64,000 nt of DNA. Origin: Haloarcula vallismortis ATCC 29715 (lineage in GTDB: Archaea > Halobacteriota > Halobacteria > Halobacteriales > Haloarculaceae). The translations under genes were made by a program, and so were the position numbers. The notes under the pieces were generated by a model that saw only the letters and a program-made list of their open reading frames with translations, had not been told where the DNA came from and ran no database searches. Below, one piece after another: positions 31,742 through 63,533 of this stretch (positions are counted from its first letter, which is position 1; each line of letters opens with the position of its first letter). The stretch is from positions 186,001 to 250,000 of the forward strand of contig NZ_AOLQ01000004.1 of NCBI RefSeq assembly GCF_000337775.1. The letters are read 5' to 3'.

Positions 31742-32517
31742 TGATTACGCTGAGTTCCGACTTCGGCTCACCGTATCCCGCAGCAATGAAAGGGGTCATC
31801 TGCCGGGCGACAGACGCCCGCATCGAGGACATCGCCCACGACTTCCCGCGCCAGGACGTGCGAGCGGCGGCCTTCTGGCTCACGCAAACGCTCCCGTACT
31901 TCCCGCCGGCAGTCCACTGCGTCGTTGTCGACCCGGGCGTCGGGACCGACCGGGACGCGCTTGTGGTCCGGGCGGGCGAACACGCGCTCGTGGGTCCGGA
32001 CAACGGCGTCCTGCTGCCGGTCGCCCGGGAACTGGCCGAAACCGAGAGCGACGGGGCGGACGCCTTCGAGGTGTTCACCTGGGCGTACGACGACCCCGCA
32101 AGTACGACCTTCCACGGGCGGGACGTGTTCGCGCCCGCCGCCGCAGCGGTCCACGACACCGGCGTCGCGGACATCGAAACGCGGCCCGAAATCGATCCGA
32201 CCGACGACTATGCCGACCTCCGGTTCCCGGCGGCCACAGTCGAGGGCGACAGAGCGTCCGGCGAGGTGCTCGTCGTTGATGACTTCGGGAACGCCGTGAC
32301 GAACATTCCCGGCGACGTGCTTGCCGACCGGTTCGGCGAGGCGGTCAGCGTTGGCGGTGTCGAGGCTTCGGTCGGCCGAGCCTACGCTGCCGTCGACCGG
32401 GGACAACGACTCGTCACTGTCGGGAGCCACGGGAACGTCGAACTCGCCGTCAACCGCGGCCGTGGGGACGAAGCGTTCGGTGTCAGTACCGGGGACATCG
32501 TGGACCTATCGCTGTGA
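31741..32517 (+). CDS. SAM hydroxide adenosyltransferase (DUF62 family)
   Basis: A 258-residue enzyme of the family related to SAM-dependent chlorinases and fluorinases; archaeal members hydrolyse S-adenosylmethionine to adenosine and methionine. 'ITLSSDFGSPYPAAMKGVI', 'VHCVVVDPGVGTDRDALVV', 'GPDNGVLLPVA' and 'FHGRDVFAPAAAAV' are conserved, including the His of 'FHGRD'. It overlaps nadM by one base, so SAM breakdown and NAD synthesis are made together. Confidence 0.9.
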   Translation: MITLSSDFGSPYPAAMKGVICRATDARIEDIAHDFPRQDVRAAAFWLTQTLPYFPPAVHCVVVDPGVGTDRDALVVRAGEHALVGPDNGVLLPVARELAETESDGADAFEVFTWAYDDPASTTFHGRDVFAPAAAAVHDTGVADIETRPEIDPTDDYADLRFPAATVEGDRASGEVLVVDDFGNAVTNIPGDVLADRFGEAVSVGGVEASVGRAYAAVDRGQRLVTVGSHGNVELAVNRGRGDEAFGVSTGDIVDLSL

Positions 32518-32574
32518 TACCGCGTTACCGTCCAGTGGTTTAGGGGCACCAAAACATCGGTGGGCTTAAGTCTT

Positions 32575-32588
32575 TTAGGTCGCCCTAA
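32575..32588 (+). promoter_or_regulatory. TTAGG-N4-CCTAA box, candidate iron-responsive (DtxR/Idr-type) operator
   Basis: TTAGGTCGCCCTAA ends 8 bases before the ATG at 32597. The TTAGG...CCTAA half-sites resemble the DtxR-family consensus TTAGGTTAG-type sequence. A second site with the same half-sites and spacing lies at 35112-35127. Position over the start region suggests repression. Confidence 0.6.
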
Positions 32589-32596
32589 TCAGTTGT

Positions 32597-35062
32597 ATGC
32601 CACAGAGACGTGACTTGCTGAAGACAGTGGGGATCGCTGCGACGGGACTGCTTGCCGGGTGTCCCAGCCAGGGGTCGTCAGAATCGAACACAGCATCAGC
32701 AGACACCGAAACGACAGAACAGGACGCAACTGCAGGCACAGACGACAGCGGCGAAAGCGGCGCTTCGGTCGGGCCGATGACCGCTGTCGCGACAGAGTGG
32801 AACGCCTACCGAGCACGGCTGTACGATGCCGTCGCGCTGGGCCGGGCCGGTGCACCCGGTGCCGGGGCGACCGTCGCACAGAACATCTTTGCTCGCTTCG
32901 AGGGCGCGTCCGGCGAGTACGGTGCGCACGAACAGCTCGAATCGACGTCCGAGTCAGCATACGAGGGGTTCGAGGATGCGCTCGGCACAGTCCAGTCGTC
33001 GCTGTCCGAGGGCGACGTGTCCGGAGCCGCTTCGGCCGCAGACGAGGCGTCGGGCCATCTACAGACGGCCCAGCAGGCCGCTGCCGGACAGCAGGCCACC
33101 AGAGTGCTGGACCTGCTCGTGCTGGGGAGTCGGGCGAGCAATGCCGCCGTGGCCGGGACGCTGGGCGCTTTCGAGGGGGCCGCCACTATCGCGGAGGAGA
33201 CGATGACCGCGTTCGAGGACGCGCTGGTGTACAGCCAGATCGAGGATGCGGACGCGGAGTCGTACGAAGCCTTCGAGAACGCACTGGCCGGTATCGGCTC
33301 CGCCGCGGGCAACGAGGACGCGAGCGGCGTCACCGAACAGGCCCGTGCCGCGCTCGATGCGACCGTTTCGGGCGCGTATGCGCTGGTCCAGCAGGAGGCA
33401 GTCGCCGGCGCGGGCCACCTCGCAACGATGCAGGCCCGCGGCTGGGACGCAGACGCGCTCGCCTCCGCCGGCGGTCCCGGACACGCATACGCCCACACGG
33501 TCACGCTGAACAGCTATCGCGCCCGTGTCGCCGACGCTGATTGGCTTGCGGCAAACGACGCGGCGGATGCGGCGTCGACGGCCGTCGAGAACGTCTTCGC
33601 CCACTTCGAAGGGGCGGACGCACACGACGCGCTGGAGGAGGCCGACGACGAGGCATACGAGACCTTCGAGGGCGGGCTGGAGGACCTCTCCAGTGCCATC
33701 GAGAACGGCAATGCTGACGGTATCGACAGCGCCACCGAAACGGTCGATACGAACCTCGTGACCGGTATCGAAGCGCTGGTCGGCGGCGAGGACACGCGGG
33801 CGGCACTCGAATCCGGATTCTTCCGCGCCCGCATCGCGGACGCCCGCGAACTGTATCGCCTCGGCGACGCTGACAGCGCGGCGACTATCGTCTCGGACGT
33901 GTTCGCCCGCTTCGAGAGGGATGAACTCGGCTTCCACGAGACGATGGAACACGAGAGCGAAGACCTCTACCATCGCTTCGAGGAGGAGCACCTCACGTCG
34001 CTGCAGTCGGCCTACGAGGACGACGACAGTGAGGCCGTGGCGACCCACCACGACGGGGTCCAGCAGGCCTTGATCGACTTCGAAGCGGCCCTGTCGACAC
34101 CTGTCGCCAGCGGGGCGGAGACGGACTACATGATCGGTCGGGCCTTCGACGCGGCGGGACTCGCGGCGCTGTCAGAGACTGACCGCGCGGCGACTGTCAT
34201 TCAGGACACCTTCGCCCACTTCGAGCGCGGTGCGGCGGGCTTCCACGAGGCGCTGGAGGAAGCCGACGAGGAAATCTACGAAAGCTTCGAAGCGACGCTC
34301 ACGGACGTTCGCACTGCGGCCGAGGACGGTGGGGATGTCACCGCCGCGGCGACGGCGTTCAACGACGAGGCCGTCGCGGCGGCGTACGCCATCGCCGGAA
34401 GCGCCGGCGGCAACGGGGAGGCCGCAGCGGCCATCATCCAGGATGTCTTCGCGACGTTCGAGGAGGCGCGGGTCCACGAGATGCTGGAGGACGCGGACCA
34501 CGACGCCTACGAGAACTTCGAGGCCGCGCTGACCGACTACTCGCAGGGACTCACGGGCGGAGACGCAGATCCGGCGGTGCTCGCGGACGCGACGCGAACC
34601 GCGCAGTTCGCCGTCGTCGGGGCTGTCGACAGCGCCCCGAGCGGCTCCGGCGGCCACGGCGGCGAGGAGTCCGAGGAAACCGAGTCATCACTGTCCGGCG
34701 GCCCGAACGTTGTTGAGGGCGTCCCCGACGACGCCGACCACGTCGTCGATATGGAGACAGTGGCGTTCAACCCGGAGGAACTCACCGTTAGCGTCGGCGA
34801 CACGGTCGCCTGGAAACACGTCGGCGGCGAGGCACACAACGTCGTCGCATACGAAGAGGAACTCCCGGAAGACGCGACCTACTGGGCCTCCGGCGGGTTC
34901 GAAAGCGAGTCGGCCGCACGCGAGGGCTGGGAGAACGGGGAGGGGGCTGTTCAGTCCGGCCAGAGCTACGTTCACACGTTCGAAACGGCCGGCGAGCACG
35001 GATACTTCTGTGTGCCACACGAGGCCGCGGGGATGGCTGGCACCGTCATCGTCGAGGAATAA
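32597..35062 (+). CDS. Lipoprotein with HExxE-type helical repeats and C-terminal cupredoxin
   Basis: An 821-residue exported protein. A Tat-like signal with lipobox ('MPQRRDLLKTVGIAATGLLAGC') is followed by an acidic linker and five or six diverged helical units of about 105 residues. These share 'FARFE' or 'FAHFE' and then a H(E/D)xxE helix: His111, His343, His447, His550 and His627, each followed by 'YExFE'-like segments. The last 110 residues are a plastocyanin-type cupredoxin with ligands His747, Cys805, His808 and Met813. I think it belongs to the haloarchaeal DUF5059 group. HxxE helices plus cupredoxin recall EfeO-type iron-uptake proteins (inference). The upstream TTAGG box supports a metal role. 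Confidence 0.8.
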   Translation: MPQRRDLLKTVGIAATGLLAGCPSQGSSESNTASADTETTEQDATAGTDDSGESGASVGPMTAVATEWNAYRARLYDAVALGRAGAPGAGATVAQNIFARFEGASGEYGAHEQLESTSESAYEGFEDALGTVQSSLSEGDVSGAASAADEASGHLQTAQQAAAGQQATRVLDLLVLGSRASNAAVAGTLGAFEGAATIAEETMTAFEDALVYSQIEDADAESYEAFENALAGIGSAAGNEDASGVTEQARAALDATVSGAYALVQQEAVAGAGHLATMQARGWDADALASAGGPGHAYAHTVTLNSYRARVADADWLAANDAADAASTAVENVFAHFEGADAHDALEEADDEAYETFEGGLEDLSSAIENGNADGIDSATETVDTNLVTGIEALVGGEDTRAALESGFFRARIADARELYRLGDADSAATIVSDVFARFERDELGFHETMEHESEDLYHRFEEEHLTSLQSAYEDDDSEAVATHHDGVQQALIDFEAALSTPVASGAETDYMIGRAFDAAGLAALSETDRAATVIQDTFAHFERGAAGFHEALEEADEEIYESFEATLTDVRTAAEDGGDVTAAATAFNDEAVAAAYAIAGSAGGNGEAAAAIIQDVFATFEEARVHEMLEDADHDAYENFEAALTDYSQGLTGGDADPAVLADATRTAQFAVVGAVDSAPSGSGGHGGEESEETESSLSGGPNVVEGVPDDADHVVDMETVAFNPEELTVSVGDTVAWKHVGGEAHNVVAYEEELPEDATYWASGGFESESAAREGWENGEGAVQSGQSYVHTFETAGEHGYFCVPHEAAGMAGTVIVEE

Positions 35063-35073
35063 CTGGCAATCTA

Positions 35074-35080
35074 TTTTTTT
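35074..35080 (+). terminator. T-tract terminator after the cupredoxin gene
   Basis: Seven consecutive T residues begin 12 bases after the stop codon, the usual archaeal intrinsic termination signal. Confidence 0.6.
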
Positions 35081-35111
35081 GGCCTGCCTAGAAACCGATG
35101 CCTTTTTGTGT

Positions 35112-35127
35112 TTTAGGGTAGCCTAAA
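35112..35127 (+). promoter_or_regulatory. Second TTAGG-N4-CCTAA box
   Basis: TTTAGG, GTAG, CCTAAA forms a perfect 6-bp inverted repeat with four spacer bases. The ATG at 35135 follows after 7 bases, and the start context (TTGTATGCC) is the same as at the first box (ATG 32597). The pair looks like a duplicated promoter-operator unit. Confidence 0.6.
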
Positions 35128-35134
35128 CAATTGT

Positions 35135-35251
35135 ATGCCGGACGAACAGGCCACATCGAGGCGGGATATCTGTCGCCGTAGCGAGTCGGGTACTGCCGTC
35201 CCTGTCGTCCGCGCAAACGCCGCCCGACAGGAGGTGAGAGCCAGGACGTGA
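35135..35251 (+). pseudogene. Relic start of an exported protein behind the second TTAGG box
   Basis: A 38-codon frame beginning 'MPDEQATSRRDICRR' and ending at a TGA at 35249. The 'SRRD' resembles the twin-arginine start of the gene at 32597, but no hydrophobic stretch follows and the frame soon ends. The 250 bases up to the next gene show no coding frame that I can support. I read it as the decayed remainder of a second iron-regulated lipoprotein gene; a genuine small protein is the alternative. Confidence 0.35.
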
Positions 35252-35503
35252 CCGGGCACTGACCTGTCAGTCTCGACCATCTTTCGCGGCGACGACCACC
35301 GTGGGCATAGCCCGTCGCCGCACGCCACGAGCTTTTCGTGTCTGTCCCGTGGGCGTCTCGCCCCAAGGACGCCCCATTTCAGGTCCTTCGCCGTGGACCA
35401 CGCTGGAACCACTGATTCTCGGTAGCCGCCGGTAGGCGCTGCGTCCGCACTGGTGTCATCTTCTCGGACAGACATTTTGGTTCCACCAGCCCTAGCACCG
35501 GGT

Positions 35504-36337
35504 ATGCGCGACGAGGAACCAGCGGAGAACATCAGCGGCGGGACCGCTGGCGGTGGTCAGTCGGCACCGTTCGACCCGGAAACGGCAGGAACGCGAGCTG
35601 AAACTATCGTCGACCGTCTCGGTGAACTGTACTGGACGAAGACCTACGGCGGCCGGGACGCCTTCGAGTGTCTCGTCCGGACGGTTCTCAGTCAGAACAC
35701 CACTGACAAGGTGAGCCAGCCGGCCCACGACGAACTGATGGCGCGGTACGGGAGCGACGGCGGGCCTGCGAGCGGTGGCGACACCGATGCAGATCTCGCC
35801 CGCGCGCTGGCCGACGCCGACCAGCCTGAACTCGCCGAGACCATCTCCTCGGCCGGGCTGTACAACCAGAAATCCAAGCGCATTATCACACTGGCACAGC
35901 GTATCTGCGAGGAGTACGGCGGCGAGGATGGCTTCGACGAGTTCGTCAGGGAGGGCGACCCCGATGAGGTTCGGTCGACGCTACTCGACATGAACGGCGT
36001 CGGCCCGAAGACCGCCGACTGCGTCCTGCTGTTCGCAGGCGGCCGTGGCGGCGTGTTTCCCGTGGACACGCACGTCCATCGCATCACCCGCCGGATGGGG
36101 CTGGCCCCGGCAGAGGCCGACCACGAGACCGTCCGTGAGTATCTGGAACGCGACGTGCCCGCAGCGAAGTGCGGCTTCGGCCACACCGCGATGATTCAGT
36201 TCGGCCGCGAGTACTGCTCGGCCAGAAAGCCGGCCTGTCTGGACGACCCCGACGCCTGTCCGCTCGCGGGCCACTGCGACCAGGTCGGCGTGTATCCGGC
36301 CTCCGGTGACGTTGTCGACCCATCGGAAACGGTCTGA
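35504..36337 (+). CDS. nth: Endonuclease III
   Basis: A 277-residue DNA glycosylase/AP lyase for oxidised pyrimidines. The helix-hairpin-helix 'LLDMNGVGPKTADCVLL' carries the catalytic lysine, and 'FPVDTHVHRITRRMGL' the catalytic aspartate. The iron-sulphur loop has four cysteines (CxxxxxxC, CxxxxxxC, CxxxxxC in 'CSARKPACLDDPDACPLAGHC'), with the middle spacing longer than the usual CxxC. The N-terminal 40 residues are a polar extension. Start chosen at 35504. Confidence 0.92.
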   Translation: MRDEEPAENISGGTAGGGQSAPFDPETAGTRAETIVDRLGELYWTKTYGGRDAFECLVRTVLSQNTTDKVSQPAHDELMARYGSDGGPASGGDTDADLARALADADQPELAETISSAGLYNQKSKRIITLAQRICEEYGGEDGFDEFVREGDPDEVRSTLLDMNGVGPKTADCVLLFAGGRGGVFPVDTHVHRITRRMGLAPAEADHETVREYLERDVPAAKCGFGHTAMIQFGREYCSARKPACLDDPDACPLAGHCDQVGVYPASGDVVDPSETV

Positions 36338-36457
36338 TACCATATTGTACGCTGTCAGTACTACTGCTGTGTGCTGGCGTAGACTCTCTCGTATCAGAGA
36401 CCGAACTGAAGTACGTTTCAGGAAGACGTTTAGTTACCTGATAGTGACACGTTCCGT

Positions 36458-37768
36458 ATGCTCGGACCGGTATCCGACAGTGGATTAGTGCGCCGGTACT
36501 ACCTGTACCGTGCCACGATTGCTGTCGGATTCATAACACCTGTTTTCACCCTGTTTCTCCTGCGAACGCTGACCTTCACACAGGTCGGTGCCCTCTCAGC
36601 GACCTACTCAGCGTTCTCAGCCGTTGGCGAGATACCAACAGGCTACGTCGGTGACAGGCTGGGGCGGCGAGCAAGTCTCCTCCTCAGCGTGTTTTTCACC
36701 GTTCTTTCTCTGACAGGCTTCATTTTCGCTTCGGGGTTCTTCTGGTATTGTCTGCTCTATCTCTTATGGGCGCTGGCACTGACATTTCGCTCAGGCAGTA
36801 TGGATGCGTGGCTGTACGACATCCTCTCTGAACGACTCGATAGCGGGCAGTTCAGCCACGTTCGTGGCCGGGGTGACGCAGTACAGAACTGGACCGCGGC
36901 AGTATCGATGGTTATCGGTGGCCTGCTGTACGGGCTGCACCCAACTTATCCGTTTATCGCTACGGTCGTTTTCAACAGCCTCGGCTCCCTTGCGCTGCTC
37001 TCACTGCCGAAGAATCGCCAGTACACTGACCGGGGTGGCGACAGCTGCTCCGGCGACCGTCTCGAGCCACTGGAAACGATCTCTGTCATCCGTACAGCTC
37101 TGGCTCGCCCGCCGCTCCGAGCGCTGGTCCTGTACATCGGACTGTTCTATTCTGTCTTGGGCGTTGCTCACTCCTACGTCCAGCCCATGGTCGTCGAGAC
37201 GTTGGGTCCGTACGCTGCCGGTATCGGCGTTCAGGTTCCTGCTGGAGGAGCGATTACGGCGGCACGAGCAGGTGAGGCCGGCGCGGCGCTTGCGCTTGGC
37301 CTGGGCGTGCTGTACGCCGCCATGACAGCCGTCTCATCGGCTGGCGGCTACTACGCCGGCGCAATTGAGGAACGGCTCGGCGTCCGCAAAGCCGTAATCG
37401 TCGTGCCAGCCCTGACGGCTGTCGTGCTCGTGGTCCCGCTGTGGATTGCGCTCGTGGCTCTCCCGGCCTTCGCGACGATGCGAACCGCAAAGCCGCTGGT
37501 CCAGCCGATTGCCAATGGGTATATTAGCGATCATGTCGAGATGGCTGGGCGAGCAACGTTGCTTTCTGCGGTATCGATGTCGTATATGGGTCTCCGAGCA
37601 CCACTGGCACTTGCTGCCGGAATGGTGGCAGATACAACCACGGCGACCACAGCAGTTGCAGCGCTTGGCGGCCTGTTTCTCGCCGCTGGCGGCGCAGTCT
37701 GGCTGCTCGGGGAGATCGCCCCCGAGACAGCCACCGCTTCGGGTGACAGGGCCAGCAAATCAGCGTGA
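36458..37768 (+). CDS. Major facilitator superfamily transporter
   Basis: A 436-residue, 12-helix MFS protein. The loop between helices 2 and 3 has 'GDRLGRRASLLL', the MFS motif A. 'GSMDAWLYDILSERLDSGQFSHVRGRGDAVQNW' is typical of the subgroup of uncharacterised exporters. No neighbour indicates the substrate. Confidence 0.85.
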   Translation: MLGPVSDSGLVRRYYLYRATIAVGFITPVFTLFLLRTLTFTQVGALSATYSAFSAVGEIPTGYVGDRLGRRASLLLSVFFTVLSLTGFIFASGFFWYCLLYLLWALALTFRSGSMDAWLYDILSERLDSGQFSHVRGRGDAVQNWTAAVSMVIGGLLYGLHPTYPFIATVVFNSLGSLALLSLPKNRQYTDRGGDSCSGDRLEPLETISVIRTALARPPLRALVLYIGLFYSVLGVAHSYVQPMVVETLGPYAAGIGVQVPAGGAITAARAGEAGAALALGLGVLYAAMTAVSSAGGYYAGAIEERLGVRKAVIVVPALTAVVLVVPLWIALVALPAFATMRTAKPLVQPIANGYISDHVEMAGRATLLSAVSMSYMGLRAPLALAAGMVADTTTATTAVAALGGLFLAAGGAVWLLGEIAPETATASGDRASKSA

Positions 37769-37879
37769 GACATCCAGCAGCAGTCTGTCGGGAGTTTCCA
37801 CACCGTGGTTAGATAGAACTCTTCTGCGGGCGAGAAGTGAGCCCCTGACTATAACGGGCCCTGTCCGCTCGTGTCTCCG

Positions 37880-38911
37880 TCACTCCCTGTGACCCCACCG
37901 CTCCCCGTCGTCGCCGTACCGCGCACTCACGATGCGGTTGAACTGGTCGTCGGACAGCGAGATGTCGGCCGCCCCGACGTTCTCGTCGAGCTGGTCGACG
38001 GTGCGGGCGCCGACGATAGGGACGCAGGTGATGTCGGGCTGTTCGATGAGCCAGCGGAGCGCGACCTGCGCGGGCGTGGCGTCGAGTTCGTCCGCAACAG
38101 CACGGAGTTCGTCGAGCACGTGCCAGCCACGCTCGGAGAGGTAGAAGTCCTCGAAGCGGTCGGACAGCGAGCCGCGAGCGCCTTCCGGCCCCTCGAAGGC
38201 CGTCGGGTCGTCGTCGTCCGTGCGCTCGTACTTGCCCGTGAGGAAGCCGCCGGCCAGCGGCGAGTACGGACAGACAGCGATGTCTTGGTCGGCACAGACG
38301 TCGAGGTAGTCTTTCACGTCGTCGCGGTAGCCGGCGTGGAACAACGGTTGTGTCACCTCGAAGCGCTCGTAATCCTCGACGTCGCTTTTCCAGAGGGCCT
38401 TCGTTAGCTGCCAGGCGGCCATCGTCGACGCGCCGAGGTGATGGACCTTGCCCGCACGGACGAGGTCGTCGAGCGTCGACAGCGTCTCCTCGATGTCGCT
38501 GTGCTCGTCCCAGCGGTGGATGTAGTAGAGGTCAAGATAGTCCGTGTCGAGGCGGTCCAGCGTCCCCTCGATCTGTGCGCGGATGTGTTTGCGGCCCAGG
38601 CCCGAATCGTTGGGGCCGGGTTCGCCGCGGCCGTCGAAGGGGAAGTACACCTTCGAGGCGATGACGAAGTCCTCGCGGTCGTAGTCCTCCAGCCACTCGC
38701 CGATGTACTCTTCGCTAGTGCCGTTTGGGTTGCCGTAGACGTTGGCGGTGTCGATGAAGTTGATGCCCCGTTCCCACGCCGCGTCGAGCAGGTCGTGGGC
38801 TTCCTCGCGGTCGGTTTCGACGACGCCGCCGGTCTCCCGGCCGAAGCGCCACGTGCCGAAACACAGCTGTGACACTGTCGTCCCGGTCGAACCGAGTCTG
38901 GTGTATTCCAT
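37880..38911 (-). CDS. Aldo/keto reductase
   Basis: A 343-residue NAD(P)H-dependent oxidoreductase. 'YTRLGSTGTTVSQLCFGTWRFG' is the family start, 'INFIDTANVYGN' has the catalytic aspartate and tyrosine, 'DFVIASKVYFPFDG' the lysine, and 'YYIHRWD' the histidine. 'CVPIVGARTVDQLDENVGA' binds the nucleotide. It belongs to the YghZ/KCNAB-like set; the substrate is not predictable. The start at 38911 agrees with the family N-terminus. Confidence 0.9.
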   Translation of the reverse strand: MEYTRLGSTGTTVSQLCFGTWRFGRETGGVVETDREEAHDLLDAAWERGINFIDTANVYGNPNGTSEEYIGEWLEDYDREDFVIASKVYFPFDGRGEPGPNDSGLGRKHIRAQIEGTLDRLDTDYLDLYYIHRWDEHSDIEETLSTLDDLVRAGKVHHLGASTMAAWQLTKALWKSDVEDYERFEVTQPLFHAGYRDDVKDYLDVCADQDIAVCPYSPLAGGFLTGKYERTDDDDPTAFEGPEGARGSLSDRFEDFYLSERGWHVLDELRAVADELDATPAQVALRWLIEQPDITCVPIVGARTVDQLDENVGAADISLSDDQFNRIVSARYGDDGERWGHRE

Positions 38912-52766: not shown

Positions 52767-53738
52767 ATGCCGAAGAAGCAGAAGCACGAGGTCCTGATGG
52801 ACGGAGATACGTGGGATGAGAAAGTGTTCAAGAACGAGCACGACATCATCAACCGCTGGTTGGAGAGCAAGGACTCGGTTGACACCTCTCGGCGTACCTT
52901 GAACTCGTACAGCAGGACGGCAGCAGTGTTCTTCCACGAGAAGTTTCCGGAGATCTCGCCGGAAGAAGTGTACGTGGAGCACGTGGAACAGTATCTCCGG
53001 GAGTTGGATGAACGCGGTGTAGCTCAGAATACGAAGAGGCGGTACGTAGAGTCGTTGTCCAGTTTCTACGACTGGGCCTCGAAACGCCGGTCGACGGATA
53101 TCTCCTATAACCCGGCAGGCGTCGTCTTAGAGCAATTGGATAAGGTGAAGCGGGAGCGTCCGGAGACCGCTACCTGGGAGAACGGGAAGAAGATTATCCA
53201 GGAGATCCCGGACCCTCGTGACAAGACCTGTGCTATCCTGATGGCGAAAACCGGTGTCCGTACGAAGGAGGCGTTGACCGTGACCGAGGAGGACCTGATG
53301 CTGGATGATGGTTTCATCCGGTTCACGGATCGGAAAGGAGGTACGACTACGAAGAACCCGGTCGACGATGAAACAGTCAGAGCCGTCAGGCGTCTTCAAG
53401 CGGTCAGCAGCGATGACAGCGAGTACCTGTTTACCGCGATTCACGGAGGCCGAGTCAAGAGAGAAAGGATTAGAAGGGAGGTTCGACGTGGAGCTGTCCG
53501 TGCCGGAGTCATGGAAGACGAAAACGAGCAGAGATGGCATCACAAATTTACTCCACACTACTACAGGACGATCTTCACGTCCTTGATGCGGAACAGCGAG
53601 CCTGGATTGAAGGATCACTGGGTCGGCTACCTCCGTGGAGACAGTGACCAGAGTATCAAAGACCTCTACACCCGGACGCCTCACGAGAAAATCAGGAAAC
53701 GGTACCTGGAGACCATCAAACCCTTGAACCTGTACTGA
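52767..53738 (+). CDS. Tyrosine recombinase / integrase
   Basis: A 323-residue site-specific recombinase. The N-terminal SAM-like DNA-binding domain is at about 40-115. The catalytic domain has all residues: Arg165 ('KTGVRTKEAL'), Lys190 ('FTDRKGG'), His264-x-x-Arg267 ('PHYYRTIF'), His284 ('KDHWVGY') and the nucleophile Tyr301 ('KDLYTRT'). It probably integrates and excises the AT-rich element it stands in. No tRNA target is visible next to it. Confidence 0.9.
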   Translation: MPKKQKHEVLMDGDTWDEKVFKNEHDIINRWLESKDSVDTSRRTLNSYSRTAAVFFHEKFPEISPEEVYVEHVEQYLRELDERGVAQNTKRRYVESLSSFYDWASKRRSTDISYNPAGVVLEQLDKVKRERPETATWENGKKIIQEIPDPRDKTCAILMAKTGVRTKEALTVTEEDLMLDDGFIRFTDRKGGTTTKNPVDDETVRAVRRLQAVSSDDSEYLFTAIHGGRVKRERIRREVRRGAVRAGVMEDENEQRWHHKFTPHYYRTIFTSLMRNSEPGLKDHWVGYLRGDSDQSIKDLYTRTPHEKIRKRYLETIKPLNLY

Positions 53739-56679: not shown

Positions 56680-57696
56680 CTATATTTGACTCTGGAAGTT
56701 CCCGACAAAATCAGAGTAATCGGTTAGATCTATTTCTCCAAAGTCTACACTCTTGAACTCTGATTTCGGTATCATAAGTGTTTGAGTCCGTCCACCGGTC
56801 ATTCCTGGGCCGCCGCCCTGAATTTGCCAAGCTGAAGCTCTAACTACATCAGATAACTGGATGGAGTGCCAATCCACAAACTCACGGTTGAATACGTGGA
56901 GTTCATCTGCTTCCTCCACCTCTCGGACGATGTAGATTGGATCAAGGCCCTTCGTCAATGCCACACGTAGCATCACGATTAGCCGACTTACGTCCAGCCC
57001 GAATAGCTCAGTAGCATCTTGGTACGCTGTCTTTTCCTTGATCTCATAGGGAACGATCTCCGAACCACTGACCAAGAGGCCATCAACGTCGAAATAGGTC
57101 CCCGTGAAGCTGTATACGTTCTTCAGATGATGGGAAAAGAAATGCTCCTTGTAGAACATCTCTTTCAGCACATCATCAGAGAAGTCAGACACAGCCTCAG
57201 TAAACTCATCTATGTAGTCTCCATCATCTTCAGTACTCCTTCCCCGCGTTCTCCACGCCTCGGTTTCGTCCTCAATATCCACCTGCTCCAGCTCTCCACT
57301 ATCGAAGTTGTAAGAGCGCCACTCCCACTCTAACTCATGTTCAGGCGGAGTATCTCCTGACCCTCCTCGAAAACTACTCAGGCCTGATTGATCGCTCTCC
57401 ACTACTGACGGGAAAATAACAGTTGTACCAGCGCTCTCCATCAGCTTTGTGGCCTCAACTTGTGCAGTTGATAGAGTATCTTCCTCCGCTGCATCCAGAA
57501 TGAATGTGTAGATATTTTCCCACGGTTGGAACTCATCGTTCTCAGGCTTCGGCTGGAACAGCATTACCTCTGAGATCGGCTCGATATCAGTTGCTTCGAG
57601 CCTGTTAAGGAAGCGAGCTTCAGCAATCATTCCTACTGCCTTCTGCTGCGCCCAGTAAGTGTGGAGGTACTCGAGATATTCCGTTCGTTCCGTCAT
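56680..57696 (-). CDS. Predicted PD-(D/E)xK nuclease-like protein
   Basis: A 338-residue protein. The middle-to-C-terminal part contains 'TGTYFDVDGLLVSGSEIVPYEIKEKTAYQ', that is, Asp-x12-Glu-x-Lys, the core of a PD-(D/E)xK nuclease, with a Tyr/Gln pair just after it. The following 'LFGLDVSRLIVMLRVALTKGLDPIYIVREV' fits the fold's helix and strand. N-terminal 150 residues unrecognised. It is divergent from the paired restriction-type nucleases, sharing their 147-base promoter region. Confidence 0.6.
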   Translation of the reverse strand: MTERTEYLEYLHTYWAQQKAVGMIAEARFLNRLEATDIEPISEVMLFQPKPENDEFQPWENIYTFILDAAEEDTLSTAQVEATKLMESAGTTVIFPSVVESDQSGLSSFRGGSGDTPPEHELEWEWRSYNFDSGELEQVDIEDETEAWRTRGRSTEDDGDYIDEFTEAVSDFSDDVLKEMFYKEHFFSHHLKNVYSFTGTYFDVDGLLVSGSEIVPYEIKEKTAYQDATELFGLDVSRLIVMLRVALTKGLDPIYIVREVEEADELHVFNREFVDWHSIQLSDVVRASAWQIQGGGPGMTGGRTQTLMIPKSEFKSVDFGEIDLTDYSDFVGNFQSQI

Positions 57697-57740
57697 AATC
57701 GACAGAAGTCGCGCCCGATCCGAAAGAGGAGATTACAAGA

Positions 57741-57785
57741 TACACACTATATACACACAATCTTCTGTATCCTATCTCGTGTGTA
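57741..57785. promoter_or_regulatory. Tandem TACACAC operator with inverted copy, divergent promoter
   Basis: TACACAC occurs at 57741-57747 and 57752-57758 (11 bp apart, one helical turn) and inverted as GTGTGTA at 57779-57785. Within it, ATATACACACAAT (57749-57761) is the exact inverse of ATTGTGTGTATAT at 61717-61729 in the methyltransferase/winged-helix promoter region. A common regulator is likely. Confidence 0.6.
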
Positions 57786-57843
57786 AAGAGTGTTTAAGAT
57801 GTAATCTGTTCTCTTTGCGGTTTAATGAGTCACTTTCGGACAG

Positions 57844-58917
57844 ATGGCAGATTATTCCGGAGACCCCTCCGAGTTCAAGGTGTATTGGTTTGCCCGCGAT
57901 CTCGTTGCCTCCAGCTATGGTAGTTACGCTACTAAGGAAACACAGACTCTGAAGCAGCTTTCCTCCCGACTGGGTAATGAACTCGAAGGAGAAGGCCTGT
58001 TGAACGAAACAGACCTTGAAACGCAGAAACAGCAGATCAGAGACACAATCACCGGCTCCGTCAACAAAACATACGGTGGCGATATCTCGAAGCGCTATAG
58101 ACAGACCGAGGACCTAGCAGAAAGAATACTGCGAAGAATTGAAGAAGAGGATGATATCCGTGAATTTCGAATAGCGATTGACGCTGTCGTTCGTACCAGC
58201 GAAATTCTGGATACAGCTCCAAGCTTTGGAAAACAGGAAATCATCCGTATAGTGAACGAAACCCTCGAAACGGATAGAGGAGATCTTGATCCTTCAAAGG
58301 CCTATGATGCACTGTACAACGTCGATTTTGAGGGAGAAGCTTATCAGCTCGGAGCTCAACGAGAACCCCTGATCGACTATGTCTATGAGGAAATGGCAGA
58401 ACTTCGAGATAGCCCGCACATCGAGCAAAGAGAAGTAGCCAGAATAATCTCTGGGATAGTTCAAGAGTACGAACGTAGAGCCGGTCAGAGCCGGGCCTCT
58501 ACAGCCGGGAATGTTCTCGAAACCGGTCTCCAGCATATCTTCAATCAATTCCAGATTCCTGCTACTGGAGACCCTGCGCACTTCGGAGACCTTGAAATCG
58601 ACAACATGGTCGACGGTCCGGAAGGCAGCATCGGGTTCTCCTGCAAACGAACCCTCCGCGAACGTTTCCGCCAGAGCCTTTCGAGAGAGGCGGAGATTGG
58701 AGTGGATGAAGTCTGGTTTGTCTCTCTATTGATGGCTGACGTCTCCAAGGAGAAACTGCAGGACATCAGCAACGATGGAAGCAGGATCTACGTCCCACGG
58801 GACTCCTTCGTCTGGAACCGATACAACAACGACGACGGTCTTTCCTACACGCTTCGGCCTGCTGACCAGTTTATCGAGGACGTGGTCGAGTTCACAGGGG
58901 TTTCAGCCGATCTATGA
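57844..58917 (+). CDS. Restriction endonuclease-like subunit A (K-x3-RER motif)
   Basis: A 357-residue protein. Residues 1-215 are mostly helical and unrecognised. The C-terminal nuclease domain has 'RASTAGNVLETGLQHIF' (Glu226), 'LEIDNMVDG' (Asp253) and 'FSCKRTLRERF' with Lys268, Arg272, Glu273 and Arg274. The SxK...RER signature is that of CCGG-reading type II enzymes such as Ecl18kI, where lysine is catalytic and R-E-R contacts CC/GG. The next gene overlaps by 4 bases and encodes a homologous domain. Confidence 0.75.
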   Translation: MADYSGDPSEFKVYWFARDLVASSYGSYATKETQTLKQLSSRLGNELEGEGLLNETDLETQKQQIRDTITGSVNKTYGGDISKRYRQTEDLAERILRRIEEEDDIREFRIAIDAVVRTSEILDTAPSFGKQEIIRIVNETLETDRGDLDPSKAYDALYNVDFEGEAYQLGAQREPLIDYVYEEMAELRDSPHIEQREVARIISGIVQEYERRAGQSRASTAGNVLETGLQHIFNQFQIPATGDPAHFGDLEIDNMVDGPEGSIGFSCKRTLRERFRQSLSREAEIGVDEVWFVSLLMADVSKEKLQDISNDGSRIYVPRDSFVWNRYNNDDGLSYTLRPADQFIEDVVEFTGVSADL

Positions 58918-59621
58918 ATGGAGATGTAAAATCTCGGATTGAGCGATACACCTACTGGGATATCTTCGAGGACGACGTTAACCGCAGAACCGACCGTGAA
59001 ATCCTCACAGATATAGAGGGCCTGATGACCAACGTAGTCGACGAGGTTACAGAACGGGCACGAGAGAATGGAAAAGATGTCTCACAGGTCCGTTCCAACG
59101 TTGCTGGGAATTACTTCCAGGCACTGGTCTCATACGCTACAGCCGACGTTGCAGCTGAAAATGGGCTAAGACTCCTTCACAGCAAAAAGCTTGAGTCGAC
59201 AGAACTAGCGGATGCAGTTCCCATAATCGGTGGAGAAGATGAGACTATCCTATCGCCCGACTCTGATATAGTCTACTACGATCCGGATGGAGGACCTATC
59301 TTCATTATCTCGTGTAAGACAAGTTTCCGTGAAAGAATGGCTCAGAGCGGTATGTGGAAGCTGATGTTTGAGGTCGCCACGCATTCCTGTACTGATCCTG
59401 ATTGCCCTACGCACAACTATTCTTTCTCAGGAGAGTTTGAACGGGATATCTACATGGGATTCGGTACGGTTGATTTCTACGACGACGTCGAATCCAAAGA
59501 TATTGTAGAACTATTCGACTTCGGATATGCGCCTACAGTAGATGAAGGAACTTCTGGAGTAGCCTATCCCATGGAACGACTGATAGACCACATCGAGGAC
59601 GAATGGAGCAGCTTTAGATAA
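58914..59621 (+). CDS. Restriction endonuclease-like subunit B (K-x3-RER motif)
   Basis: A 235-residue nuclease, essentially one domain. 'VRSNVAGNYFQALVSYA' parallels subunit A but has Gln where A has Glu226. 'LSPDSDIVYYDPDGGPIFIISCKTSFRERM' gives Asp116/Asp118 and Ser133, Lys135, Arg139, Glu140, Arg141. This resembles BsaWI-type enzymes (from memory). 'HSCTDPDCPTHNYSF' is an additional Cys/His cluster, possibly zinc-binding. Translation starts in the stop of subunit A (ATGA, 58914-58917). A heteromeric restriction enzyme is the simplest reading. Confidence 0.75.
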   Translation: MNGDVKSRIERYTYWDIFEDDVNRRTDREILTDIEGLMTNVVDEVTERARENGKDVSQVRSNVAGNYFQALVSYATADVAAENGLRLLHSKKLESTELADAVPIIGGEDETILSPDSDIVYYDPDGGPIFIISCKTSFRERMAQSGMWKLMFEVATHSCTDPDCPTHNYSFSGEFERDIYMGFGTVDFYDDVESKDIVELFDFGYAPTVDEGTSGVAYPMERLIDHIEDEWSSFR

Positions 59622-60246
59622 CTCCGCCCCACTGCTTTGCCATGGCTTCTGCTACACCTGGGAAGAACCTGCTTCTTTCTTTACTTCTTTCTTCGCTGGG
59701 GGGCATCCTGTGTACTCTTGCTTCTCTTTTGTCTTCATCCTCGATTACATCTGTAGGTTCGAGTTTGGGAAGATTCTTCAACCATAGACATATCCCTTTT
59801 TTCTCGGGTTCTCCGAACTGCCATGGCTGAATGGTTTGTCTCTGTTCCTCAGGGTAGTCTTCAATGCCTGCTACCTTCTTCCCCCATTTGTGCATAACAG
59901 GGTTTTCTACCGCTATATGCGGTATTTTTTCACAATTCAGTAATTTTCTGAAGAACACTCCGCCTTCAACCATATCCTGCCATCTTTCCTCTTTCTCATA
60001 CAACCATCTTACCCCTGAATTACTGAGATAGGTACATGGTGGATGTGCAATCATCAAATCAAACTCTTCGCCTCTCTCCTCTAACAGTTCCAAGACATCT
60101 CCCTGAATATGATACTCGCTATTTTTTTCGGTCTCCTCCAGATCACAGCTTACAGCATCAAACCCTTCGTTTCTGAAAGCGTCTCTCACTATTCCTGAAA
60201 ATTCGCAGGCAACCAGCACTTTACCGCTATTGCTTTCTGCAGCCAT
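59614..60246 (-). CDS. Short phage-type DNA methyltransferase-like protein (PPC/ENP)
   Basis: A 210-residue protein of a group common in phages. 'KVLVACEFSGIVRDAFRNEGFDAVSCDLEETE' is a SAM-binding-like start, 'LMIAHPPCTYLSNSGVRWLY' carries PPC as in C5-cytosine methyltransferase motif IV, and 'HIAVENPVMHKWG' looks like the ENV motif VI. 'QTIQPWQFGEPEKKGICLWLKNLP' follows. No target-recognition domain fits in this length. Its 3' end overlaps the end of nuclease B by 8 bases (convergent). Confidence 0.72.
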   Translation of the reverse strand: MAAESNSGKVLVACEFSGIVRDAFRNEGFDAVSCDLEETEKNSEYHIQGDVLELLEERGEEFDLMIAHPPCTYLSNSGVRWLYEKEERWQDMVEGGVFFRKLLNCEKIPHIAVENPVMHKWGKKVAGIEDYPEEQRQTIQPWQFGEPEKKGICLWLKNLPKLEPTDVIEDEDKREARVHRMPPSEERSKERSRFFPGVAEAMAKQWGGVI

Positions 60247-60299
60247 ATTTGTTTATCTTGAAATTTATTTTTAAATTATTTATTCTAAAACAGAGGGAG

Positions 60300-61658
60300 T
60301 CAATCTGCCTCCTGCGGTTCCTCTTCTTGGATAGGCTGATTGAAGATCTCCGTCCGAATAGCAGTGCCGAGAGCTTGAGCCAGTAACGGCGGAACGGCGT
60401 TACCCACCTGTTTGAAGGCGTGAGTGCGTGAGACGGGGAACTCGAATGTGTCCTTGAACGATTGCAGCCGTGCTGCCTCTCGAACCGTGATTGAACGGGC
60501 CTCATTCGGATGGATGAACATATGCCCGTCCTTGTAGAGATGTGCCACAATCGTGGTGGACGGTTCCTTCGGGTTCTGCTTTTTCAGTTTATCCGGGAAG
60601 ATATCAGTCCGGTAGGGCTGGTGCTCCTCTGGGATATCTCCAATGATATACGAGGTCCCTTCTCCAAGAAGTTTGTAGAGAGTCAGGTCACGCATATTAT
60701 GGCCACGGCACTCGTGGTTCAAGAGATCTTGTTCCTCCCAGTCCTGTTCCTCGTCGAGATCTCTTGCCCAGTACTGGTACTCTGAAACTGGACCTATTTC
60801 ATATTCTTCTGCTTTGGTTGGCGGTGTCTCACCCTTGGGGGAGACAGGAGGGAGGTCGAAGATACCATCAGCCACAGTGTTCCAGGGCTCTTTATTCCGC
60901 TTGTTCTTGCGGAAAGTGGGAAACTCTTCTTCTTCACGGTTGTCGACGAAACCGTCGAGTGTGTGCTGATCTTCTTCGGAGCGCTTGGAGGGATCTTTCT
61001 TGTACTTGATTTTCTTCTCTTCCTCATTCTTGGGAGGCCGGTGTGTCTCCCACTGCTCCATATCCGGGTTTTCCGCACCTAATCGGTTTCCAATAAAGAA
61101 CAGCCGACTCCGGTGTTGGGGTACGCCGTAGTTCGCGGAGTCCAAAAGCTGGACCTTGACATTATAGTCTAGGTCAAGATCCATATCTGCGACCTCTCTT
61201 TCGCCACGCATTTGTTCCTTGATGGTGTCGACGACAGGTTTGCCGTCCTCGTTTTCTGCGGAGAGCATACCCTCGACGTTTTCCATCAGGAAGGCCTTTG
61301 GCTGATAGTGGTCGACGAATCGAAGAAACTCCTCGTAAAGGAGGTGACGTTCGTCACTCTGGTTATCGCGTCCTTCAAGTGAATTGATCTTGCTGCGGCC
61401 GACAAGTGAGAAAGTTGGGCAGGGTGGTCCACCTGCGACGAGGTCCAGTTCGCCTTCCTCTAAGCCGAGGTCTGGTGGCTCTTCTTCACGGATGTCGCCC
61501 ACCGTCATTTCGCATTCATGGTTTGCATCGTAGGTGGGCTTCGTATTCTCTTCGTGGTCAATTCCCCAGAGAACTTCGAACCCGGCGTCGTGGAGGCCTT
61601 GAGATAGGCCGCCGGCCCCGCAGAAGAGGTCGATAGCTGTGAGACGTTCCTCGGTCAT
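60300..61658 (-). CDS. DNA C5-cytosine methyltransferase
   Basis: A 452-residue methyltransferase with the ordered motifs: I 'IDLFCGAGGLSQGL', IV 'VAGGPPCPTFSLVGRSK' with the catalytic Cys80, VI 'AFLMENVEGML', VIII 'PQHRSRLFFIG', IX 'TVREAARLQSF' and X 'QVGNAVPPLLAQAL'. The target-recognition region between VIII and IX is about 210 residues and strongly charged. It should methylate the site cut by the nuclease pair. Divergent from the winged-helix gene across a promoter with the shared 13-bp motif. Confidence 0.93.
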   Translation of the reverse strand: MTEERLTAIDLFCGAGGLSQGLHDAGFEVLWGIDHEENTKPTYDANHECEMTVGDIREEEPPDLGLEEGELDLVAGGPPCPTFSLVGRSKINSLEGRDNQSDERHLLYEEFLRFVDHYQPKAFLMENVEGMLSAENEDGKPVVDTIKEQMRGEREVADMDLDLDYNVKVQLLDSANYGVPQHRSRLFFIGNRLGAENPDMEQWETHRPPKNEEEKKIKYKKDPSKRSEEDQHTLDGFVDNREEEEFPTFRKNKRNKEPWNTVADGIFDLPPVSPKGETPPTKAEEYEIGPVSEYQYWARDLDEEQDWEEQDLLNHECRGHNMRDLTLYKLLGEGTSYIIGDIPEEHQPYRTDIFPDKLKKQNPKEPSTTIVAHLYKDGHMFIHPNEARSITVREAARLQSFKDTFEFPVSRTHAFKQVGNAVPPLLAQALGTAIRTEIFNQPIQEEEPQEAD

Positions 61659-61713
61659 CTGTTCAGACGAATGTAGCGGCGGTCGTTTAAAGTTCCTATT
61701 CGGGGCATGTGCT

Positions 61714-61731
61714 TATATTGTGTGTATATTG
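61714..61731. promoter_or_regulatory. Direct-repeat operator between methyltransferase and winged-helix genes
   Basis: TATATTG, TGTG, TATATTG: two copies one helical turn (11 bp) apart. The core ATTGTGTGTATAT (61717-61729) is identical, inverted, to 57749-57761 in front of the nuclease genes. It lies about 56 bases before the methyltransferase start and 44 before the winged-helix ATG. Confidence 0.6.
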
Positions 61732-61774
61732 TAACCAACTTAAATACTTCGCTACGGCAAATTCCCTGTACTGA

Positions 61775-62029
61775 ATGGACGTCGAGGAATATTCGTGGGT
61801 GAAAGCCAGCGAGTACCGTGAGAATCTTCTGCTCGCGCTCGAGGATAAACCTCGTACGCCGAAAGAGCTGTCAGAGATGACTGACTACTACCTGAGCCAC
61901 GTCAGCAATGTTCTCTCAGATCTGGACGATCACGGCCTCGCAGAATGCATAACACCCGACCGGAAGAAAGGCCGTCTATGGAAAGTGACCGAAAAAGGCG
62001 AAGAAATAATTGAGGACCTGAAACGGTGA
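61775..62029 (+). CDS. Small winged-helix regulator of the restriction-modification locus
   Basis: An 84-residue ArsR-like winged helix. 'TPKELSEMTDYYLSHVSNVLSDLDDHGLAECITPDRKKGRLWKVTEKGEEIIEDL' shows the HTH, wing and terminal helix. The only DNA-binding domain protein between the methyltransferase and glycosylase, it is the natural candidate to bind the 13-bp motif, acting like a restriction-modification controller protein (inference). Its stop overlaps the GTG start of the next gene. Confidence 0.78.
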   Translation: MDVEEYSWVKASEYRENLLLALEDKPRTPKELSEMTDYYLSHVSNVLSDLDDHGLAECITPDRKKGRLWKVTEKGEEIIEDLKR

Positions 62030-62820
62030 CCGAGCAATCATCCCTACCATTTGGAAAGACTGACGTCACCAGCGAAGAACTCAAACAGCTAATTGATACA
62101 GAAGAGGCCATCATACAGGCAAAAAAAGGAGGAGTAAAAGATACAGAGCAGCAGATCAGCGATTTTATCAACTGTATTCCTAACCTCTTGAACTGGCTTG
62201 AAGACCATGGGCGAAGGTATCCGTGGAGGGAAACAGAGGATCCGTGGAAAGTCTACTTAGCTGAGATTCTCCTCCAGCGAACACGAGGAGATGCCGTTGA
62301 GAAAATATACTCGGACGTAATTCAACAGTTTCCGACCCCAGAAGCTCTGAATCAGGCCTCAGAAGAAGAGATTAGGGAAGTCGTTCACTCTCTCGGCTTT
62401 GTGAATCACAGACAGAGAACGCTAGAAGAGGTCGGGAGAATTTTCACCCAAGAGTTCAATGGAGAAATCCCGAACTCCATCGAGGATTTGAAGAAACCAT
62501 GGCGAGTGGGTGACTACTCTGCGAGGGCTACCCAGCTATTTGCAAGGGGAGAACCCATGGCCTTGGTCGATTCCAACTTCGCCAGAGTAATCGGCAGAGT
62601 TCTTGGATATGAAATGCCACAGCAACCTCACAAGAGCGATGACGTGTATGCACTGCTGGATGCGCTCACACCAACTGATTCAGATATTACACGGAGTTTC
62701 AATTTAGCCGTTCTCGATCTCGGAGCTCTCGTATGCACGCCTGACAGCCCAAATTGTGAATCGTGCCCTATTAGCGCTGCCTGCCACTACTACCGGTTAA
62801 CAAGGATGGAGGGCGACTAA
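62026..62820 (+). CDS. HhH-GPD DNA glycosylase, Mig.Mth-like G/T mismatch type
   Basis: A 264-residue glycosylase with GTG start overlapping the winged-helix gene (GTGA). 'HGRRYPWRETEDPWKVYLAEILLQRT' is MutY/Mig-like. Tyr164 ('VGDYSARA') and Asp182 ('LVDSNFARVIGRVLG') match the active residues of the thermophilic archaeal mismatch glycosylase Mig.Mth, not the lysine of endonuclease III. The [4Fe-4S] cysteines are 237, 244, 247 and 253 (C-x6-C-x2-C-x5-C). Such an enzyme repairs T opposite G formed when 5-methylcytosine deaminates, which fits the neighbouring C5 methyltransferase. Confidence 0.85.
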   Translation: MTEQSSLPFGKTDVTSEELKQLIDTEEAIIQAKKGGVKDTEQQISDFINCIPNLLNWLEDHGRRYPWRETEDPWKVYLAEILLQRTRGDAVEKIYSDVIQQFPTPEALNQASEEEIREVVHSLGFVNHRQRTLEEVGRIFTQEFNGEIPNSIEDLKKPWRVGDYSARATQLFARGEPMALVDSNFARVIGRVLGYEMPQQPHKSDDVYALLDALTPTDSDITRSFNLAVLDLGALVCTPDSPNCESCPISAACHYYRLTRMEGD

Positions 62821-62822
62821 AT

Positions 62823-63272
62823 ATGGCATACTTTTGGCTGAATCAGAAAGGAACTGATGGAAGCAACTACCATGATGAGGTCGGAGAGGTCTACCACTAC
62901 AGAGGGAACACGCCTGGAGCAAACCAGCTTTCCGAGGGTGACAAATTCATCTACTACCGTCCCGGTGATTATGTGATATTCGGAGCGGGAGAGATAGATC
63001 ATATTGAGCGAAAAGAACGAGACCTTGACTCTGAATCGGGGGTTGCTGTGGATTACTTCGCGCACATCACCAACTACCAGCCTTTTGAACCGCCGATAAG
63101 GCTCAAAGGTGTGAACGAGAGTGCCTTGAAGAACAAGATCTCCTTCCTCAAGGATAAACCGGGGCTAACGGGAGTTCCACAACATAGCATACACCAGATA
63201 TCCAAAGAGGATTTTAAGGCAATTATTGAGGCAGGAGAGAAAGAGGTCGGCCCAACTGGGGCAAGAGAATAA
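62823..63272 (+). CDS. PUA/EVE-like single-domain protein
   Basis: A 149-residue protein. 'NYHDEVGEVYHYRGNTPGANQLSEGDKFIYYRPGDYVIFGAGEIDHIE' followed by 'YFAHITNYQPFEPPIRL' has the arrangement of EVE/PUA-like domains that sit at the N-terminus of HNH or McrA-type modification-dependent endonucleases. Here no nuclease is fused. It starts 2 bases after the glycosylase stop. Reading of modified cytosine is plausible but not proven. Confidence 0.55.
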   Translation: MAYFWLNQKGTDGSNYHDEVGEVYHYRGNTPGANQLSEGDKFIYYRPGDYVIFGAGEIDHIERKERDLDSESGVAVDYFAHITNYQPFEPPIRLKGVNESALKNKISFLKDKPGLTGVPQHSIHQISKEDFKAIIEAGEKEVGPTGARE

Positions 63273-63296: not shown

Positions 63297-63533
63297 ATGG
63301 GGCAATACGATGTCGCCAAGGTGATTCTCGAGTCTGATGGCGGTCTGGAAAAGTCACAACTTATCCGCCAGATAGACCTTTCCAAGAGTGCCGTCGAAGC
63401 GAGTATTCATGACCTCTTGGAGAAAGATTACATCACCGAATCAGAGGACGGGCGACTAATCTGGAATCCAGATATTTCTGAAGAGAAGATAGATAATATC
63501 CGTCCACGTTCGCTTAGTGAGCTGGATTTCTGA
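63297..63533 (+). CDS. Second small winged-helix protein
   Basis: A 78-residue protein with one winged helix: 'DVAKVILESDGGLEKSQLIRQIDLSKSAVEASIHDLLEKDYITESEDGRLIWN'. It is the last plus-strand gene of the restriction-modification stretch, 24 bases after the EVE-like gene. Targets unknown. Confidence 0.7.
   Translation: MGQYDVAKVILESDGGLEKSQLIRQIDLSKSAVEASIHDLLEKDYITESEDGRLIWNPDISEEKIDNIRPRSLSELDF

Follow-up and report, generated by a model that had tools for sequence, protein, structure and literature searches.

Bacterial C proteins, such as those of the PvuII, BamHI, AhdI and Csp231I types, are described as small autoregulated regulators encoded within their own restriction-modification systems and associated with a delay of the nuclease; their operators lie at their own and at the nuclease genes, and the methyltransferase gene is divergent from the regulator gene (PMC12707154, PMC3874152). 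A comparable arrangement is found in a 64,000-nucleotide stretch of Haloarcula vallismortis ATCC 29715 (contig NZ_AOLQ01000004.1, positions 186,001 to 250,000; hereafter the window). Here, an island that appears from its gene content to be a haloarchaeal type II restriction-modification system with predicted nucleases encodes an 84-aa winged-helix protein divergently from a C5 methyltransferase, and 30-bp arrays of half-sites are situated at the regulator gene (O1) and at nuclease genes (O2 and O3). We propose, with a probability of roughly 60%, that these arrays are operators and that the 84-aa protein is their cognate regulator, which would make it an autoregulated, activator-type controller of the island with a predicted delay of the nucleases. 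The likeness to C-protein systems has its limits, as C proteins carry a lambda cI-like helix-turn-helix (HTH) fold (PMC12255303), whereas the 84-aa protein belongs to another, winged-helix family. Moreover, three direct half-sites 11 bp apart lie upstream of an archaeal promoter in the present locus, where the nuclease genes have promoters of their own, apart from the regulator gene.

Other described regulators share further traits with this locus. EarA, the activator of the archaellum operon, is also a small archaeal regulator with several short tandem sites, located just upstream of the B recognition element (BRE) of a weak promoter (PMC5512572, PMC10665913), four such sites being used (PMC5512572). 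The 84-aa protein shows weak Pfam similarity to EarA (PF07381), but its 16.9 bits remain below the gathering cut-off of 22, its regulon is a different one, and its half-site reads TATATTGT instead of the TACATA of EarA. RptR from type I restriction-modification islands is likewise reported as a small autoregulated protein with three promoter repeats that is conserved together with its site across genomes (PMC12255303), although it is a bacterial four-helix repressor acting over the -10 box through 6-bp palindromes in a type I system. BrxR resembles the present case as a transcriptional regulator encoded with its phage defence system (PMC9122589), yet it is a bacterial WYL protein and serves BREX, not a type II system. 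In a survey of Halobacteria restriction systems, the terms controller, promoter, winged and helix-turn-helix are all absent (PMC6471742), and no archaeal controller protein was found in the literature that we covered, which is incomplete and thus offers weak evidence of absence. Lastly, the island glycosylase is closest to 1kea, recalling the Mig.Mth-type glycosylase located beside an archaeal C5 methyltransferase. We know of no regulator or operator described at Mig.Mth-type loci.

The elements concerned are the following, in coordinates of the window:

61703..61732, + strand: O1, predicted operator; half-sites at 61703-61710, 61714-61721 and 61725-61732; contains the 13-mer at 61717-61729
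57773..57802, + strand: O2, predicted operator; degenerate array of three half-sites upstream of nucA
57735..57764, - strand: O3, predicted operator; three half-sites towards nucL; contains the 13-mer at 57749-57761
61775..62029, + strand: winged-helix protein of 84 aa, proposed controller (sub-threshold Pfam matches, nine close homologues, alignment)
60300..61658, - strand: C5 cytosine DNA methyltransferase of 452 aa (PF00145, E 3.9e-63, above cut-off)
57844..58917, + strand: nucA, predicted type II restriction endonuclease of 357 aa (EcoRII-C, E 9.6e-5, 23 bits against a cut-off of 25)
56680..57696, - strand: nucL, nuclease-like protein of 338 aa (D-x-D-G...YEIKEK stretch, a motif reading by eye; three homologues aligned)

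The initial annotation of this DNA had drawn attention to a 13-mer, ATATACACACAAT, at 57749-57761 (+) that recurs as its reverse complement at 61717-61729, and to direct half-repeats 11 bp apart, namely TACACAC at 57741 and 57752 and TATATTG at 61714 and 61725. Both copies of the 13-mer are exact, the half-repeats are present as described, and the location of the 61717 site between the C5 methyltransferase and winged-helix genes is borne out by O1, which points towards the winged-helix gene. With up to two mismatches, the 13-mer has three matches in the window compared with 0.14 expected, and three matches never arose in 100 shuffles. The complete genome (69 contigs with 3,923,205 bases) contains exactly two copies, both at this locus, and no further copy at one mismatch. 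Nevertheless, the same pattern read backwards as a control also has two genomic matches at up to one mismatch, and rarity by itself is therefore no argument for the 13-mer. Nor is the 13-mer the unit: alignment of homologous promoters revealed a 30-bp array, nnnATGT-N3-TATMTTGT-N3-TATATTGT, in which three bases separate the half-sites, giving a GT step every 11 bp. Since the 13-mer covers half-sites 1 and 2 in O3 but half-sites 2 and 3 in O1, the exact identity of its two copies is in part a by-product of the repeat. There are three such arrays in the window, among them O2, which had escaped the earlier reading. The 57749 site had been described as preceding the nuclease pair as well as the divergent gene; on account of its orientation and its spacing to the start codon, we assign it as O3 to the leftward nucL only, nucA having its own array at 57773-57802.

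In a protein search, nine other genomes yielded regulator homologues (74-96% identity); eight of these genomes came from a class sample of 292 and one (G357) from the organism's own family, where 5 of 146 genomes carry the regulator. An order sample of 392 genomes returned the same eight and one more at 48% identity; the class and order samples (292, 392 and 352 genomes) were drawn from a larger group. No island relatives were found in viral contigs, and on plasmids nucA was not found and regulator homologues reached less than 60% identity. In 10/10 genomes, own included, the regulator gene is divergent beside the methyltransferase gene, the two start codons being 114-118 bases apart, and the arrays are present in all ten (regulator identity 74-100%). 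Their place, orientation and sequence are conserved in 11 loci of four families. Neither of the two outcomes that would have refuted the initial annotation, a 13-mer frequent elsewhere in the genome or the lack of both sites at homologous loci, thus speaks against it. nucA lies near the regulator and methyltransferase genes in these ten genomes except G140 (L036 7547-12371 and the stretch to nucA in L060), in which it is found ~17 kb beyond the methyltransferase. This stretch of G140 includes three genes (554, 547 and 507 aa) with weak matches to the defence models mad8, LmuB and JetC3, and it seems that a second defence system was inserted inside the restriction island.

O1 could be aligned across ten genomes and ranked first in its own locus in all ten when scored with matrices from the other genomes. 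For cross-genome prediction, a matrix built from the O1 sites of other genomes only was used to pick the top-scoring site within 100 bases ahead of nucA. In 11 loci (the ten regulator genomes and a relic in G304), the nucA site ranked 4, 3, 3, 1, 2, 2, 2, 2, 2, 2 and 3 among 31,944-37,944 positions, O2 itself being fourth of 37,944; the nucA of G140 and the G304 locus were obtained after the operator set had been fixed. In G218, the best-ranked position is displaced by one 11-bp repeat. Among 300 column-permuted matrices, by comparison, the loci at rank 5 or better numbered 0.47 on average and 7 at maximum. A sequence model, R1, made from 22 sites was run over 16 genomes. At E<=0.036 it has 23 matches, every one of them at an array: 22 are its own training sites, whose match is a given, and the other is the G304 relic. 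The next best match beyond arrays has an E of 0.385. O1, O3 and O2 match at E 1.2e-5, 9.4e-5 and 0.0024, respectively. O2 has counterparts in 10 other loci, and an array equal to O3 exists in the three genomes where nucL adjoins nucA. By eye, O1 and O2 possibly co-vary, with A for G in the spacer at both sites in G218 and G178, which are too few cases to claim it.

The arrays could in principle reflect chance, the shared A+T-rich composition of promoters or a recombination repeat with no regulatory role, as the sequence is short and A+T-rich and the reversed control likewise has two matches at up to one mismatch. We give this very little credence, given that place, orientation and sequence are kept in 11 loci, that the arrays are absent where the regulator is absent, and that column-permuted matrices of equal composition do not reproduce the ranks, a comparison on which chance and a recombination repeat were rejected. 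A genome-wide regulator was rejected as well, the 13-mer in its own genome and, among the candidates scored in 16 genomes, the R1 matches at E<=0.036 being confined to the arrays; this locus specificity supports the initial annotation.

The arrays also appear to follow the regulator gene. From 27 methyltransferase matches, 25 loci were obtained, with scores of 27.7-39.4 in the nine that have the regulator and of no more than 8.5 in the other 16. G294 and G190 retain the methyltransferase (81% and 76% identity) and nucA (62% and 46%), G294 also the glycosylase and EVE genes, but have no close regulator; no arrays were found there, the best scores (4.8 and 8.5) falling off these promoters. One array without a regulator does exist, in G304 (L063 about 9385-9577), where an intact-looking array precedes the first 41 nucA residues in a genome with no close regulator or methyltransferase, and we read it as a relic. 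The earlier proposal that the winged-helix gene encodes the controller of the sites is thus favoured by the distribution of the arrays across relatives, with the 30-bp array in place of the 13-mer and a separate one for nucA. As binding by the 84-aa protein is a prediction from sequence, another factor might occupy the sites, for instance a host factor or the C5 methyltransferase itself, in the manner of the self-regulating M.SsoII. However, arrays are missing in 16/16 methyltransferase loci without the regulator and in G294 and G190, which keep the methyltransferase, and R1 has no match in the sampled regulator-less genomes G294, G190, G082 and G083 and one at E 0.385 in G016, which makes a different binder improbable. 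The second winged-helix gene of the window (63297-63533) has counterparts of high identity only in its own genome, G154 and G357. From such distributions across relatives, the methyltransferase, the glycosylase, the EVE protein and the second winged-helix protein were rejected as binders. As a separate observation, 4 of the 27 methyltransferase matches (L075, L076, L077 and L080) contain one in-frame stop, TAG in three and TGA in one.

A distant group (G219, G418 and G422) may extend the pairing. Its regulators are 40-48% identical and divergent from methyltransferases that are 31-33% identical over most of their length, and directly after the regulator follows a gene of ~325-356 residues (L012 509-1486, L103 6386-7360, L047 6383-7453). 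This gene has no Pfam match and a weak type II nuclease match (E 0.0024 in G219, 7.5e-5 in G418), and its D...VLVLEKT stretch looks like that of a PD-(D/E)XK nuclease. In the 300 bases preceding the regulator match, GTGTGTA is found in 3/3 of these methyltransferase-linked loci, compared with 0/20 other homologues. It is present twice in G219, at a spacing of 11 bp (matrix score 21.7), twice in G422, at a spacing of 33 bp, and once in G418 (score 11.1).

The 84-aa protein matches HVO_A0261_N (PF25213) with 28.3 bits, short of the cut-off of 35, and HTH_5 with 20.1 bits, also below cut-off. Two regulators of the distant group exceed the PF25213 cut-off (38 and 43.6 bits), so the 84-aa protein is probably a divergent branch of this family. 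The 12 Pfam families listed to E 0.1 are either winged-helix or unrelated ones and include no cI/XRE-type HTH, which is why we do not file it as a C protein; a PDB sequence search with the winged-helix profile gave no match. A branch (99/93) separates the 13 methyltransferase-linked regulators to one side, and these share N in the putative recognition helix where 19/20 controls carry R. A cysteine at residue 58 (C58) is present in 13/13 linked regulators and absent from 20/20 unlinked homologues; a role in sensing is possible.

The arrays lie 38-44 bases from the start codons. O1 ends 41-43 bases before the regulator ATG, with a TATA-like box following it, and starts 44 bases from the methyltransferase ATG in the window; the distance from array to start codon is 38-41 bases for nucA and 38 bases for nucL. 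The two TATA-box-like elements are:

61740..61747, + strand: TTAAATAC, controller promoter, 7 bases after O1
61686..61691, - strand: TTTAAA, methyltransferase promoter

The place of TTAAATAC is conserved in 10/10 loci, with the variants ATACATAC in two and ATAAATAC in one, and TTTAAA is found in 9/10 loci. At the nucA and nucL promoters, no conserved TATA box follows the array in the aligned loci, and hence these promoters most likely need the bound regulator. The binding sites of archaeal activators are typically located upstream of the BRE, at promoters whose TATA/BRE elements are weak (PMC5512572, PMC5937170), and for this reason we lean, by a modest degree, towards activation over repression.

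The proposed mechanism would run as follows. The 84-aa regulator would occupy the three half-sites, which their 11-bp spacing places on the same face of the DNA, probably in a head-to-tail arrangement, and each array immediately precedes the core promoter of its target gene. On entry of the island into a cell, the methyltransferase and regulator genes should fire unaided from their TATA promoters, and bound regulator may then recruit TBP or TFB at the nuclease promoters, so that nuclease expression would lag until the regulator has accumulated together with the methyltransferase. Such a delay is suggested by analogy with C-protein systems. With the same operators and binder, the winged-helix protein could instead repress the whole island, its own, the methyltransferase and the nuclease promoters alike, until infection lifts the block or transfer dilutes the protein. 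Since the arrays border on the predicted BRE, a protein bound there could stand in the way of TFB, and RptR is a precedent for a small autoregulated repressor that binds a threefold repeat in the promoter of a restriction system (PMC12255303). The RptR sites, however, overlap the -10 box, whereas the arrays here are upstream of the TATA position, and nuclease promoters wanting a conserved TATA box suit activation better; repression is thus a possible but less likely explanation.

Several points speak against the proposed circuit of regulator, operators and nuclease delay. Winged-helix proteins of the ArsR- and MarR-like kinds frequently act as repressors. The methyltransferase promoter, too, borders on O1, so methylation may also be under the influence of the regulator, and a simple timing model loses some of its force. 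O2, at nucA, is the weakest among the three arrays of its own genome. Enzymes without a regulator are represented by two loci only, G294 and G190. In the distant group, the matrix score in G422 is just -0.5, R1 matches in G219 alone (E 0.218), and GTGTGTA is not rare in these genomes. Besides, the R1 search scored a limited number of candidates (150/212 in G000), and the nucA site of G140 is absent from its matches; isolated sites elsewhere in a genome might therefore have gone unnoticed.

The remaining genes of the island are:

58914..59621, + strand: nucB, second predicted restriction endonuclease of 235 aa (RE_BsaWI, E 5e-9, 36.6 bits, above cut-off)
62026..62820, + strand: mismatch-type DNA glycosylase of 264 aa (HhH-GPD, E 4.5e-16), overlapping the controller gene by 4 bases
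62823..63272, + strand: EVE-domain-like protein of 149 aa (PF01878, E 7e-4, 20 bits against a cut-off of 23)

The nucA and nucB genes overlap by 4 bases, and the stretch GFSCKRTLRERF is invariant in 12/12 nucA sequences. PDB sequence searches gave no match for nucA and a sole, chance-level match for nucB (E 0.3), nucL has no family match in Pfam, PADLOC or NCBIfam, and the AlphaFold models of nucA and nucL are too poor (mean pLDDT 53.7 and 38.4). The best PDB match of the glycosylase is 1kea, a 'possible G-T mismatches repair enzyme' (E 1.6e-34), a likeness that would presumably fit repair of deaminated methylcytosine. Downstream of the methyltransferase, a 210-aa gene (59614-60246) shows marginal methyltransferase matches and a PPCTYL motif, with close homologues found only in G154 and G357. 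A gene read by eye as tyrosine-recombinase-like (52767-53738) lies ~3 kb left of the island, and no tRNA genes were found in the window.

No description seems to exist of how mobile restriction systems get into an archaeal cell and leave its DNA intact. Archaea may have built a controller circuit of their own, independent of C proteins, in which a winged-helix activator on three phased half-sites upstream of the BRE drives its own gene and the methyltransferase gene from TATA promoters and switches on TATA-poor nuclease promoters late, once enough of it has built up. One regulator lineage would then be shared by no fewer than two unrelated kinds of nuclease, nucA and the 325-residue gene found in G219, G418 and G422; we consider the case for this broader view evenly balanced. 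If true, the timing logic of C proteins would have evolved separately on a eukaryote-like promoter, and the island would provide a small archaeal gene circuit, predicted at base resolution for regulator, operators and targets alike, that could be tested in Haloferax.

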